This document shows positions 9,202 through 22,222 of a DNA stretch of 41,149 nucleotides, in pieces; the first letter of the stretch is position 1; each line of letters begins with the position of its first letter. The DNA lies in the NCBI GenBank assembly GCA_944324285.1, contig CALUVR010000020.1, positions 1 to 41,149 on the forward strand. Direction: 5' to 3'. The notes below the pieces were generated by a model. It was not told where the DNA came from. It searched no databases and worked only from the letters and a program-made list of their open reading frames with translations. Source of the stretch: Candidatus Gastranaerophilales bacterium. GTDB taxonomy: Bacteria; Cyanobacteriota; Vampirovibrionia; Gastranaerophilales; Gastranaerophilaceae. The position numbers and the translations under genes were made by a program.

Positions 9202-10326
9202 TTACGGCTCATATTTTTCGTAAAATTCCGGCGGTAATTCCCTTATCGGATTATACAATTCTGCAATTTCTTCTTTCTCAAATTTAGTCCGAGCTTGCAG
9301 TAAGTCAGAAAACCCTTCTTTTTCTATTTTATATAAACAATAAGGATTACATCTGCATCCGGTATTAGTTGCAGCGATTACGCAGCCTCCTTTGCAGATT
9401 GAGCCGTATATACAGTCTTTACAATATCCGGTGAGCATAGAGCAGTCAAAATGCCTGTTATATTGAAATGCATTCGGATCGTTCCAAATATCAATCAGTG
9501 AACGCTCTCTTACATTCCCTTCAATATATCTGTCCAGCTGCTGAGATAAACATCCTCTGACCGTTCCGTCCGAGCCGATACCGAGAACCTGCATTCCCGC
9601 CTGACAGCCATACCACGGTCCCTGAATACTTCTTGCAAAATCACTCATATAACCTGTAACATCAGACCCGGTTACGTCAATTTTTCCTGCATAATTCGTT
9701 TTTAAATCAAGTATAAATTTCGCAATTTCCCAGAACTGTCCTTCAGTAATCATAGATTCTCTTGGCATTCTTCCGATAAAATCAGCATACTGTATCTGCC
9801 AGTAATATACACCCAAATCAAGCAACAAGTCCCTTATCTTTGGAAGCTGTGAATAATTCAATTTGTGTACGGTTGTAACAATAGATGGAGCAATCCCCGC
9901 TTCCTGAAGTTTTTTAATTGATTCAATTACATGTTCAAAACAGCCCTTGTGCCCTCTAATGTAGTCGTGCATATAAGCATCGGCTGCGTCGATGCTTATC
10001 CCGAATACAACAGGATTAATTGATTTTAAAACTTTTATGGTATCATCATTGATAGCAAGTGCATTTGAGATAAACGCGACCTTCATCCCGTGTGATTTTA
10101 TAGCTGCTGCAATTGCCCCGAAATCTTCCCTTAACAACGGATCTCCGCCGGATAAAAAGATAACTTCCGTCCCAAGCTGCTTTAAATCCGCTACTATATC
10201 AAGACATTCGGCTGTCGTCAGTTGATTATCTTTCTCAACAGAAATACAGTCAGAACCGCAATGAATACATTTTGCATTGCATTTCCAGGTTATCTCCCAC
10301 ACAACCTTTTTTAGTGTATATCTCAT
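9202..10326 (-). CDS. radical SAM/SPASM peptide maturase
   Basis: A 374-residue radical S-adenosylmethionine enzyme, most likely modifying the repeat peptide encoded divergently next door. The CxxxCxxC cluster motif is C16-C20-C23 (KCNAKCIHC), SAM-binding SGGDP is at 59-63, and the TIM-barrel core runs to about 225. A Cys-rich SPASM domain follows (C241, C259, C295, C302, C305, C311, C315, C324, C326, C330) and should hold two auxiliary [4Fe-4S] clusters. SPASM enzymes of this size form thioether or C-C crosslinks in RiPP precursors, or act as anaerobic sulfatase/quinoprotein maturases; no sulfatase or amine dehydrogenase is nearby. No separate N-terminal precursor-recognition (RRE) domain is visible. 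A GGGAG site precedes the ATG. The shared upstream region is only 144 bases. Confidence 0.85.
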   Translation of the reverse strand: MRYTLKKVVWEITWKCNAKCIHCGSDCISVEKDNQLTTAECLDIVADLKQLGTEVIFLSGGDPLLREDFGAIAAAIKSHGMKVAFISNALAINDDTIKVLKSINPVVFGISIDAADAYMHDYIRGHKGCFEHVIESIKKLQEAGIAPSIVTTVHKLNYSQLPKIRDLLLDLGVYYWQIQYADFIGRMPRESMITEGQFWEIAKFILDLKTNYAGKIDVTGSDVTGYMSDFARSIQGPWYGCQAGMQVLGIGSDGTVRGCLSQQLDRYIEGNVRERSLIDIWNDPNAFQYNRHFDCSMLTGYCKDCIYGSICKGGCVIAATNTGCRCNPYCLYKIEKEGFSDLLQARTKFEKEEIAELYNPIRELPPEFYEKYEP

Positions 10327-10427
10327 GATATTTATTTCTCCCTTTTAGTTAATAATAGTTTAAATCTTATGGTAATGTCTAATCTGTTAAGAAATGAAAC
10401 AAGGTTATCTGATTTTGAAAAAAGTGG

Positions 10428-10433
10428 TATAAT
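10428..10433 (+). promoter_or_regulatory. candidate -10 box for the repeat-peptide gene
   Basis: TATAAT at 10428-10433, 37 bases before the ATG, with only a poor -35 candidate (TTATCT, 10405-10410, spacing 17). A second TATAAT at 10441 lacks a well-placed -35. Confidence 0.35.
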
Positions 10434-10470
10434 CATACGTTATAATATATATAAATATAAGGAGATTTAT

Positions 10471-11118
10471 ATGGTTGATAATATTGGATCCGGTAATAAA
10501 TTTGATGCCGCATGGAAAGAAGCTAAAGCTCAATTGATTAAGGATGGAAATTCAAAGCCTTCGACACAGGATATATTGCATTATCTTATAGATAAGTGGA
10601 AGCCTCAGAATAATGATCCAAACAAAATTGTAGTCCAGGGATTTCATTTAGAACACGACAGTACTCCGCAAGTTAATACCAAATACGGAGCAAACATCGG
10701 CTGCCAGCAGGACGTTCAGGAGGCTGTTACCAAATACGGCGCAAACATTGGATGCCAACAGGATGTTCAGGAAACCGTCACTAAATACGGAGCAAACATT
10801 GGCTGCCAGCAGGATGTTCAGGAAACCGTCACTAAATACGGAGCAAACATTGGCTGCCAGCAGGACGTTCAGGAAACCGTCACTAAATACGGAGCAAATA
10901 TTGGCTGCCAGCAGGGGGCGCAAGAAACTCCGGTCATTAACACAAAATACGGGGCAAATATTGGGTGCGGAGATAGAACTTTAAAAATAAACCCTGATTC
11001 TTTAGAAGCAATATTAGATCACTTTAATAACGGTAATAATACATTAAAAAACGGTACTTCCGTTTCGTATGACCGAACCACAGGAACTCTTCATATAAAT
11101 AGAGATAACAAAGAGTAG
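10471..11118 (+). CDS. probable multi-core RiPP precursor with six TKYGANIGC repeats
   Basis: A 215-residue protein likely to be the substrate of the divergent radical SAM enzyme. The ATG at 10471 is chosen because AAGGAG lies 6 bases upstream; an upstream in-frame ATG at 10369 lacks one. Residues 1-69 form a charged, helical leader-like region (FDAAWKEAKAQLIKDG, then ILHYLIDKWKPQ). Residues 70-154 carry five 17-residue units TKYGANIGCQQDVQETV, and a sixth TKYGANIGC lies at 158-166. The only cysteines are one per unit (78, 95, 112, 129, 146, 166), each preceded by Asn at -3 (N-I-G-C). Residues 167-215 form a follower (LKINPDSLEAILDHF) with no signal peptide. Asn-x-x-Cys equals the crosslinked motif of the streptococcal NxxC radical-SAM peptides. 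No peptidase or exporter gene is adjacent. Confidence 0.75.
   Translation: MVDNIGSGNKFDAAWKEAKAQLIKDGNSKPSTQDILHYLIDKWKPQNNDPNKIVVQGFHLEHDSTPQVNTKYGANIGCQQDVQEAVTKYGANIGCQQDVQETVTKYGANIGCQQDVQETVTKYGANIGCQQDVQETVTKYGANIGCQQGAQETPVINTKYGANIGCGDRTLKINPDSLEAILDHFNNGNNTLKNGTSVSYDRTTGTLHINRDNKE
10678..10968 (+). repeat. 51-base tandem coding repeat, five units plus a sixth core
   Basis: Units start at 10678, 10729, 10780, 10831 and 10882. The fifth is diverged at its end, and after a nine-base insert a partial sixth begins at 10942. Units 3 and 4 are identical over the TKYGANIGC part; the others differ there only at third positions. Confidence 0.95.
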
Positions 11119-20239: not shown

Positions 20240-22222
20240 CTACAGGGATCCGCCGCCGCCATCATTGAAGTAATCATAGTGACGGATATCATCATAGTTG
20301 TTAACCGGTTCTGCCGGCGGCAACGGTTGTGCCTTAACAGCTTTAGCCGTTGAGCGGTTTCTCAACAACGCATCAAAGTTAGGTTCCATAGTCAATTCAA
20401 AGTGGAAACGTCCGACTTTTCTATCTTGATCAAAGTATGTACTGTTGATTAACGGGTAGCCCCAGTATAAACGACCTGTTAAATCACCAGGAAGTTGTAC
20501 TCTTAAGCCCATACCGATAGAAGCCATAAAGTAGGAACCGTGGTGTCCAGGAAGTTTATAGTAATCTTCATCAACCTGCGGGAACACACCGCCAAAGTCA
20601 GCGAATACTGCACCTTTAACATATTTTCCGATAAACGGAATTTTTTCTTTAGAGCGAGGGCTTGTGATTTCACGAGGTAATAACGGGAACATCAATTCGT
20701 TATTAATATAGAACCCGTTTTTACCAATCATCTGACCTTCAGCGTAGCCTCTAACAGTTGCAAGACCGCCAGCCTGGAACTGGTCAATATACGGAATATG
20801 TTTGTTGTTAGGGATTACCTGATAGTTAGCTCTCATCTGACCGATAAAACCGTGAGAGAAGTCATGCAATCTGACCGCACCACCGGAAATTTTTACGTAG
20901 TTTGAATCATTATCAAAGATAGGAGCAGCATAGCTTACACCCTGGTTCAAATACCATATACCATACTTGGTATCTTTACGCATATTCAATGCTACATCAA
21001 CACTTGTTACCTGATCCAGACCGAGTTCATCATCAAGACCAAAGTCTTTTAAAAGTCCCATTGTGGTTCTGGCACGTTTATAATTTAAAGCTGTATAAGT
21101 TTTCAACTCAAAGCCAGGTTTTCTGATAATCGGTTGAGTATAGTAGAGGGAATACATATACGCTTTACTTCTCAAGTCAAAGTCTTTGAATTCACCGTAT
21201 CTGATTTTAGATAAACCTGATGAGAACAGGAATCCGACACGACCGTCTTTTCTGTTAACAGGGAAGTTATAATCAACAAACGGGCTGACAGAACCACCGC
21301 TGAAATAAGACCCGATGGATAACTTATCTCTGTTATGGAAAAGGCTGTCTGCGTAAATCATAGCGCCGCCTCTTAAGTGACCTGTAGTATAACGACCTGC
21401 GTTATCCATAACACCGACGAGGTGGAACGGGAAATTTTCATGTGCCGTAATTTCAATATCGGTAGTTCCGTCAGCTTCACCTGCTTTAAGGTTTGCAGTC
21501 AGGTTAACACCTTCATTGTATCTGTTGAAATCAAGGATATCTTTTTCTAATTCTACGATATCAAACAAATCGCCTTTTTTCTGCGGTAATCTGTCTGTAA
21601 TATATTTATCTCTTGTATACTTATTTTCGTTTACAGTAATATTACCTACACGGCTTTCAATAAGTTCAATATAGATATTGCCGTTAGTAACCGTTTGTTC
21701 CGGAAGAAAAGCTTTTGCAGTAACAAAACCTTTTGATGCATACAACTGGTTAATTTGGTTAACAACGCTTGTAATATCTCCTATAAAGACGTTTTTACCG
21801 ATAAGAGGTCTTATGATATTATCAATTTCTTCCTTCGTTAAGATTTCGGAAGGTGATACTTCAACGGAATTTACATAAACTCCTTTTGTATCAATATCCT
21901 CAACCTGAGCTTGCATTAAGGCACCGTTAGGGTCGTAATTCTTAATAACCTGGTTTTCTTTACTCGGGTTTTCTATTGAGTTTTTACGTCTTTCATAACG
22001 ATTGTAGTCGTCGTTAATATACTGTTGCTCGCGTTTAAATTCCAAAGAATCTGTATTATGTTTGTAGTTCATACCGCCTTCCATCTGGAGTTGATTTAGA
22101 ATAGGGATGTCGGGAGCGGCAAAACCTGGGGTAACAGATGCAGGAATAGCAAGGGCAAGACCGGCACATAAGCCCAGTAATGCCTTTGAAAAATTAATTC
22201 TTTTTTGATTCTTTTCCATCAT
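20240..22222 (-). CDS. two-partner secretion/ShlB-FhaC type outer-membrane transporter (Omp85 superfamily)
   Basis: Outer-membrane beta-barrel that exports a TpsA-type partner, or works as another Omp85 transporter. 660 residues. A signal peptide ends near FAAPDIP (about residue 36), then a charged linker. A POTRA domain follows (VYVNSVEVSPSEILTKEE, then GKNVFIGDITSVVNQINQLY, about 95-185) and a second, ShlB-like segment. The barrel runs from about 265 to the C-terminus and contains the superfamily signature LATVRGYAEGQMIGKNG (VRGY) near 490. The last residues (HYDYFNDGGGGSL) do not end in the usual aromatic. No TpsA gene is in the window. OmpH/Skp, a periplasmic chaperone for such barrels, diverges from it. 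Confidence 0.85.
   Translation of the reverse strand: MMEKNQKRINFSKALLGLCAGLALAIPASVTPGFAAPDIPILNQLQMEGGMNYKHNTDSLEFKREQQYINDDYNRYERRKNSIENPSKENQVIKNYDPNGALMQAQVEDIDTKGVYVNSVEVSPSEILTKEEIDNIIRPLIGKNVFIGDITSVVNQINQLYASKGFVTAKAFLPEQTVTNGNIYIELIESRVGNITVNENKYTRDKYITDRLPQKKGDLFDIVELEKDILDFNRYNEGVNLTANLKAGEADGTTDIEITAHENFPFHLVGVMDNAGRYTTGHLRGGAMIYADSLFHNRDKLSIGSYFSGGSVSPFVDYNFPVNRKDGRVGFLFSSGLSKIRYGEFKDFDLRSKAYMYSLYYTQPIIRKPGFELKTYTALNYKRARTTMGLLKDFGLDDELGLDQVTSVDVALNMRKDTKYGIWYLNQGVSYAAPIFDNDSNYVKISGGAVRLHDFSHGFIGQMRANYQVIPNNKHIPYIDQFQAGGLATVRGYAEGQMIGKNGFYINNELMFPLLPREITSPRSKEKIPFIGKYVKGAVFADFGGVFPQVDEDYYKLPGHHGSYFMASIGMGLRVQLPGDLTGRLYWGYPLINSTYFDQDRKVGRFHFELTMEPNFDALLRNRSTAKAVKAQPLPPAEPVNNYDDIRHYDYFNDGGGGSL

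Follow-up and report, generated by a model that had tools for sequence, protein, structure and literature searches.

A radical SAM/SPASM gene faces a six-repeat protein gene

The window, by which we mean the whole 41,149-nucleotide stretch analysed (contig CALUVR010000020.1), comes from a 2.0 Mb Gastranaerophilales genome and contains a radical SAM/SPASM gene and, divergent from it, a gene for a protein with six near-identical units; near-identical loci are present in Gastranaerophilales metagenome-assembled genomes. The features of the pair are as follows, with the basis of each in parentheses.

9202..10326, minus strand: radical SAM/SPASM enzyme, 374 aa, proposed stand-alone splicease, a tyramine-excising maturase (PF04055 and PF13186, tree)
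9337..9606, minus strand: SPASM region with seven auxiliary-cluster cysteines, C241, C259, C302, C305, C311, C315 and C330 (alignment)
9790..9801, minus strand: W176-Q-I-Q179 signature, common to PlpX-type enzymes (alignment)
10258..10281, minus strand: radical SAM motif C16-x3-C20-x2-C23, which binds the SAM [4Fe-4S] cluster (alignment)
10327..10470, no strand: divergent intergenic region, 144 bp (sequence)
10471..11118, plus strand: six-core precursor/substrate protein, 215 aa (ORF, repeat analysis)
10471..10680, plus strand: leader, residues 1-70 (comparison with L047 and L130)
10681..10704, plus strand: core unit 1, KYGANIGC, predicted splice site K71-Y72-G73 (repeat analysis)
10732..10755, plus strand: core unit 2, KYGANIGC, predicted splice site K88-Y89-G90 (repeat analysis)
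10783..10806, plus strand: core unit 3, KYGANIGC, predicted splice site K105-Y106-G107 (repeat analysis)
10834..10857, plus strand: core unit 4, KYGANIGC, predicted splice site K122-Y123-G124 (repeat analysis)
10885..10908, plus strand: core unit 5, KYGANIGC, predicted splice site K139-Y140-G141 (repeat analysis)
10945..10968, plus strand: core unit 6, KYGANIGC, predicted splice site K159-Y160-G161 (repeat analysis)
10969..11115, plus strand: follower, residues 167-215 (conserved in G005; L003 and L014 compared)

The 374-residue SPASM radical SAM gene claimed in a preliminary description of this DNA is present, with matches to PF04055 (E 7.5e-26) and to the SPASM domain PF13186 (E 1.2e-8). No NCBIfam model passed its cut-off on this enzyme. 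The best score, from the GDL-peptide maturase model TIGR03913 (188 bits; cut-off 592), was far below threshold, as were those of the second-best, TIGR04103 (186.8 bits; cut-off 725), and the third-best, the lipoprotein-associated SPASM model TIGR04133 (173 bits; cut-off 425). The window enzyme is therefore outside the curated TIGR04103 equivalog. Among solved structures there was no close homologue (best SkfB, 55 bits), and Foldseek with an AlphaFold model of moderate quality (pLDDT 66) returned the radical SAM/SPASM enzymes PqqE, SuiB and SkfB, matches that are generic for SPASM enzymes, such that the modelled fold leaves the chemistry undecided.

The facing gene likewise agrees with what had been described: a 215-residue divergent protein across 144 bases, with six units, Asn/Cys pairs at residues 75/78, 92/95, 109/112, 126/129, 143/146 and 163/166, no Cys outside the units, and CQQD in four of them. 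Its units begin at residues 71, 88, 105, 122, 139 and 159. We favour the ATG at 10471 over an alternative in-frame ATG at 10369 (which would yield 249 aa), because a ribosome site, AAGGAG at 10459-10464 on the plus strand, precedes it. In 2000 shuffles of the precursor, no 6-mer occurred more than twice; the repeat pattern is thus far beyond chance. At the DNA level the gene is a 51-bp tandem array (91% matches), of which a regularly repeating 91-aa antisense ORF (10648-10923, minus strand) is a by-product and not a gene.

The precursor belongs to no known family, with only chance matches in NCBIfam and Pfam. The Nif11 leader model TIGR03798 did not match the window precursor, while it matched a control precursor (L054) at 1.3e-15. 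The window leader does share a stretch, GNKFDAAWK...LIKDGNxKPSTQDI, with two Cys-free precursors (L047 and L130), and the end of the follower (..VxYDRxTGTLH) is also present in a fragment from G011. Conserved neighbours of the pair include neither a protease nor an exporter. Elsewhere in the window (20240-22222, minus strand) lies an FhaC/ShlB-type outer-membrane transporter (POTRA_2 and ShlB domains), with no obvious large exoprotein beside it in the ORF list.

The pair stays together within the genus and its units keep an Asn-x-x-Cys motif

We found the KYGANIGC protein in 3 of 13 genomes of the genus, and the enzyme is present in all three; a repeat protein in a genome lacking the enzyme, which the preliminary description had named as evidence against its reading, was not seen. 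In a fourth genome (G010), a PLYGVP protein (L021) takes the place of the KYGANIGC protein beside the enzyme. Gene order around the pair varies while the pair stays joined: in the sister species G005, the DNA from the pair to the left end of the window differs, and the pair and its right flank are kept. In G011, the array is split over two contig ends (L002 at the C13 end, L014 at the C1 start) with at least 8 full units summed over both. Short-read assembly probably miscounts such arrays, and thus the number of units is untrustworthy. Weak precursor matches in other genomes (L005-L013 and L016; E 0.005-0.4) look unrelated and were set aside.

Across the 21 units from the genus, the Asn at Tyr+3 and the Cys at Tyr+6 are invariant, while other positions vary (G005 has NIGC, NVGC, NADC and NAGC). 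Thus, comparison of the units indicates that selection probably holds the N-x-x-C motif within the genus. CQQD is absent from G005.

Enzyme relatives adjoin Tyr-centred repeats

Neighbouring genes were gathered for enzyme homologues in 146 relatives, in 383 family genomes and in a separate collection of contigs, and ORFs facing or next to each enzyme were read for repeats. The closest enzymes adjoin units of KYGVPYP (enzyme 76% identical to that of the window), TKYGINTP (74%), TKYMPPI (74%) and LYGVPPE (72%), followed by PVYGIVTP (67%), AMYAAPVRP (67%), MVYGIQQD (66%), PLYGVPVD (66%), VYAYIPPE (65%), MVYGICTP (61-63%), PLYGVISPP (62%) and AMYGITL (61%). In the 49 units outside the genus beside enzymes 60-76% identical to that of the window, Tyr is preceded by V, L, M or K and followed by Gly (37 units), Ala (9) or Met (3). 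What is constant among the substrates is the Tyr, with K, L, M, V or R before it and mostly Gly after it; Tyr+2 varies (A, V, I, P, Y), as does Tyr+3 (N, P, I, C, T, V, Q, R, K, S).

The preliminary description had read the units as up to six small thioether rings, in which the enzyme links the Cys sulfur to the Asn beta-carbon, with C-x-x-D in CQQD as a second crosslink geometry. Ranthipeptide and streptococcal N-x-x-C thioether systems do combine a SPASM enzyme with an N-x-x-C peptide, as the window does, and the invariance of Asn and Cys in 21 of 21 genus units amid variable neighbours, as well as SuiB and SkfB among the closest folds, would fit such chemistry. However, the fold match is generic, and N-x-x-C occurs in 0 of the 49 outside-genus units, including those of the two Cys-free precursors that share the window leader (L047 and L130). 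Only 4 of the 49 have a Cys at all (VYGIC), at a position where sister units have Arg. The window motif, unlike that of the known systems, is limited to one genus and dispensable for close relatives of the enzyme. Moreover, a Cys-Asp crosslink is at odds with the lack of CQQD even in the sister species. We therefore rejected N-x-x-C and C-x-x-D thioethers as the main chemistry and consider them improbable here: close homologues adjoin Tyr-centred repeats without N-x-x-C, so the thioether reading is unsupported. Enzyme homologues without a KYGANIGC protein, which had been put forward as telling against the original proposal, are indeed what we found. Its broader part, a multi-core RiPP-like substrate facing a SPASM maturase, stands; N-x-x-C thioether formation by this enzyme is not supported.

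To the eye, 20 of 22 close loci have a Tyr-unit protein (excluding two at contig ends, L048 and L141), and no Tyr-repeat protein was seen near the other two, in G464 (L144) and at a tandem pair in G059 (L122). We also applied an automatic rule, in which an ORF no more than 1.5 kb from the enzyme must contain the same YGx or YAx tripeptide two or more times. The rule fired at 15 of 30 Gastranaerophilales genes, 17 of 26 PlpX-type genes and 0 of 20 other SPASM genes of the phylum (Fisher P = 8e-5 for Gastranaerophilales against other SPASM genes; 2e-6 for both groups together). The rule counts too few of the single-unit and YM precursors; at one locus (L080) it fired spuriously, although a real four-unit ORF there overlaps the end of the enzyme gene.

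These counts bear on whether the two genes are neighbours by chance, with the repeat protein left unmodified in some structural or metal-binding role. Repeat proteins are common, and this one has no known family; however, Tyr-unit proteins adjoin this enzyme class in many genera and none of the 20 other SPASM genes, and within the genus the repeat protein keeps to enzyme-bearing genomes and to its partner through changes in the surrounding gene order. We regard a chance pairing as very improbable and a true maturase-substrate relation as very probable.

The enzyme is kin to PlpX-type spliceases

In a maximum-likelihood tree of 61 rows, the Gastranaerophilales enzymes (98/96) and the PlpX-type enzymes (100/99) each group together, and a 100/97 branch separates both, along with L111 and L120, from other SPASM enzymes; L111, L120 and L041 are long branches whose placement is unsure. 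The tree set did not knowingly include Pleurocapsa PlpX, and cyclophane and known N-x-x-C thioether enzymes were left out of it. Full-length phmmer matches agree, with PlpX-type enzymes at 135-177 bits and other SPASM enzymes of the phylum outside the branch at 78 bits or less, although identity between the window enzyme and PlpX-type enzymes is only ~28-30%.

All ten cluster cysteines are conserved in the Gastranaerophilales and PlpX-type enzymes: C16-x3-C20-x2-C23 is invariant across aligned relatives and PlpX-type enzymes, as are the seven auxiliary-cluster cysteines. Thus the window enzyme has the CX3CX2C motif and full auxiliary set expected of a splicease. W-Q-x-Q is found in 27 of 29 Gastranaerophilales rows, 16 of 16 PlpX-type rows and 0 of 16 comparison SPASM rows, and the combination of W176-Q-x-Q179, G225-Y226 and G240-C-x-x-G occurs in both groups and is absent from the 16 comparison rows. 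The most divergent row, L041, has neither W-Q-x-Q nor a Tyr-repeat neighbour, and no Tyr repeats were seen near the TIGR04133-like L111. The two groups share descent, and among characterised classes the cyanobacterial splicease type (PlpX/TIGR04103) is nearest to the window enzyme by tree and signature. We take IPR026482, the PlpX class, to be the same as TIGR04103.

The natural sites of PlpX are MYG and LYG, and several splicing events are possible per precursor (PMC10533398, PMC11002830, PMC10373908). Cyanobacterial TIGR04103 enzymes adjoin Nif11-leader precursors with QPLYGV/MYGV units, and the PlpX splice tag PIRPLYGLPI (PMC10533398) is nearly the same as VRPLYGVPIG (L022) and IKPLYGVPVD (L021). 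The window pair resembles the PlpX/PlpY system of Pleurocapsa sp. PCC 7319 in its SPASM class, cluster cysteines, W-Q-x-Q and G-Y signature and X-Tyr-Gly sites (six K-Y-G in the window), and in belonging to one tree clade; it differs in its low identity, in a leader that is not Nif11, and in units that have Lys before Tyr, come in six near-identical copies and carry N-x-x-C after each site.

It differs also in that PlpY was not found. PlpX works with PlpY as partner, and PlpXY has been published for protein labelling (PMC10533398). All 21 loci above the TIGR04103 cut-off have a small ORF (55-95 aa, LLPRSAWNSQ..YLR..FRAKKALDRIE), which we take for PlpY. A PlpY query found the gene in two cyanobacterial controls (G296 and G290) and found none in the window genome (G000), G005, G011, G642, G109 or two PlpX-like genomes (G146 and G180), with only a chance-level match in G053; a remote or unrecognisable PlpY-like partner is possible. 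PlpX-like loci below the TIGR04103 cut-off (L072, L073 and L080) likewise have no PlpY found, and PlpX-like loci can be multi-copy (PKYGLPMP five times, APMYGMP seven times). L072 even has Lys before Tyr, in five QPKYGLPMP units. In contrast to the window enzyme, these three lie inside the PlpX clade, apart from it, and their units are Cys-free after the site.

A proposed stand-alone splicease acting at Lys-Tyr-Gly sites

Together these comparisons suggest that the pair is probably a new spliceotide variant, with PlpX-like action predicted, outside the TIGR04103 equivalog and with no PlpY found. Our preferred reading, to which we assign a probability of roughly 0.72, is a spliceotide-type maturation pair in which a stand-alone enzyme converts up to six Lys-Tyr-Gly sites to lysine ketoamides. 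In the six-core protein, the leader, the repeats or both would serve as the recognition element for the SPASM enzyme, whose 5'-deoxyadenosyl radical would abstract a hydrogen at every Lys-Tyr-Gly. Excision of the tyramine part of Tyr (C8H9NO, ~135.07 Da per site) would follow, and with the Tyr and lysine carbonyls joined, the backbone would contain an alpha-keto-beta-amino residue (a lysine ketoamide) at up to six sites per protein, all without a PlpY partner. Protease inhibition has been described for spliceotide products (PMC10373908, PMC11117315). As Lys would adjoin the ketoamide and occupy the cleavage-side position, we predict a product that inhibits trypsin-like serine (or cysteine) proteases. 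We infer the splicing reaction, the use of all six sites and the inhibitor role. Against splicing count the ~28-30% identity to PlpX-type enzymes, the TIGR04103 score (187 against 725 bits) and the lack of a PlpY match.

A different Tyr-centred reaction, in which the Tyr ring is crosslinked to a nearby residue (a cyclophane, for example to Ala or Asn at +2/+3) or Tyr is changed in some other way without splicing, would suit a Tyr that is constant while the next residue is G, A or M. For other radical SAM enzymes, motifs of the form aromatic-x-x-Asn are proposed cyclophane substrates (PMC9062424). However, Tyr+2 and Tyr+3 offer no fixed partner residue, and the closest characterised class is the splicease in a tree from which cyclophane enzymes were left off; we consider such a reaction unlikely.

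Simple splicing leaves the invariant Asn and Cys unexplained. As N-x-x-C is probably under selection, a further Cys-dependent step is possible, in which the thiol adds to the ketone, a disulfide forms, metal is bound or a second, genuine crosslink is made. Specifically, each unit might undergo two linked events, single-enzyme splicing of Lys-Tyr-Gly to the ketoamide and then Cys attack or an Asn/Cys crosslink, to give six small rings, each based on a beta-amino acid; the attacking Cys would be genus-specific, five residues after Gly. We think this an outside chance; to our knowledge, such a peptide class is undescribed so far.

Returning to splicing as the preferred reading, it would mean that a large and varied set of partner-free splicease-like systems exists in non-photosynthetic relatives of cyanobacteria from gut and rumen, with substrates from K-Y-G to R-Y-A-G-P and K-Y-M-P-P. 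A lysine ketoamide from a gut bacterium would point to a trypsin-like protease target and a possible ecological role, and a single-protein splicease would simplify PlpXY protein labelling (PMC10533398). The literature searched yielded no paper on spliceotides in Gastranaerophilales, though such loci may have been described earlier. More generally, predictions of radical SAM chemistry are better guided by the substrate residue conserved across relatives than by one genome's striking motif.

Substrate variants and enzyme expansion in relatives

Since relatives include YA, YM and PLAG variants, the family is wider than X-Y-G, and its chemistry may be broader than splicing. Sister-clade precursors have [KR]YAGPE repeats (up to 11 units; L148:687-1427, L150:1045-1488, L151:1011-1379), in which Ala replaces Gly after Tyr and which, if spliced, would widen the X-Tyr-Gly rule. 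Repeats of PLAG[VLI]IA.P, a unit without Tyr, occur in proteins (L031:1017-1466, L032:2539-2874, L033:2503-2844) beside enzymes of a deeper subclade, 41-43% identical to that of the window, possibly a substrate switch inside one enzyme family. Deeper homologues at L036-L039 have precursors with an N-terminal secretion-signal-like stretch and TKYGV[YF]F.DDI units; at L037-L039 a second radical SAM enzyme adjoins.

G059 has two tandem enzyme copies (L050 / L122), 58% identical to that of the window, among several small radical SAM/SPASM-like genes and with no Tyr-repeat protein within ~8 kb. Several genomes of genus g41 each have 19-40 first-look candidates, which suggests that such enzymes have expanded. 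On a contig assigned to an Acinetobacter metagenome-assembled genome (L048, CAMORE010000074.1), probably through a binning error, lies a Gastranaerophilales-type enzyme 63% identical to that of the window, and the ORF downstream of it recurs in G615 (L141).
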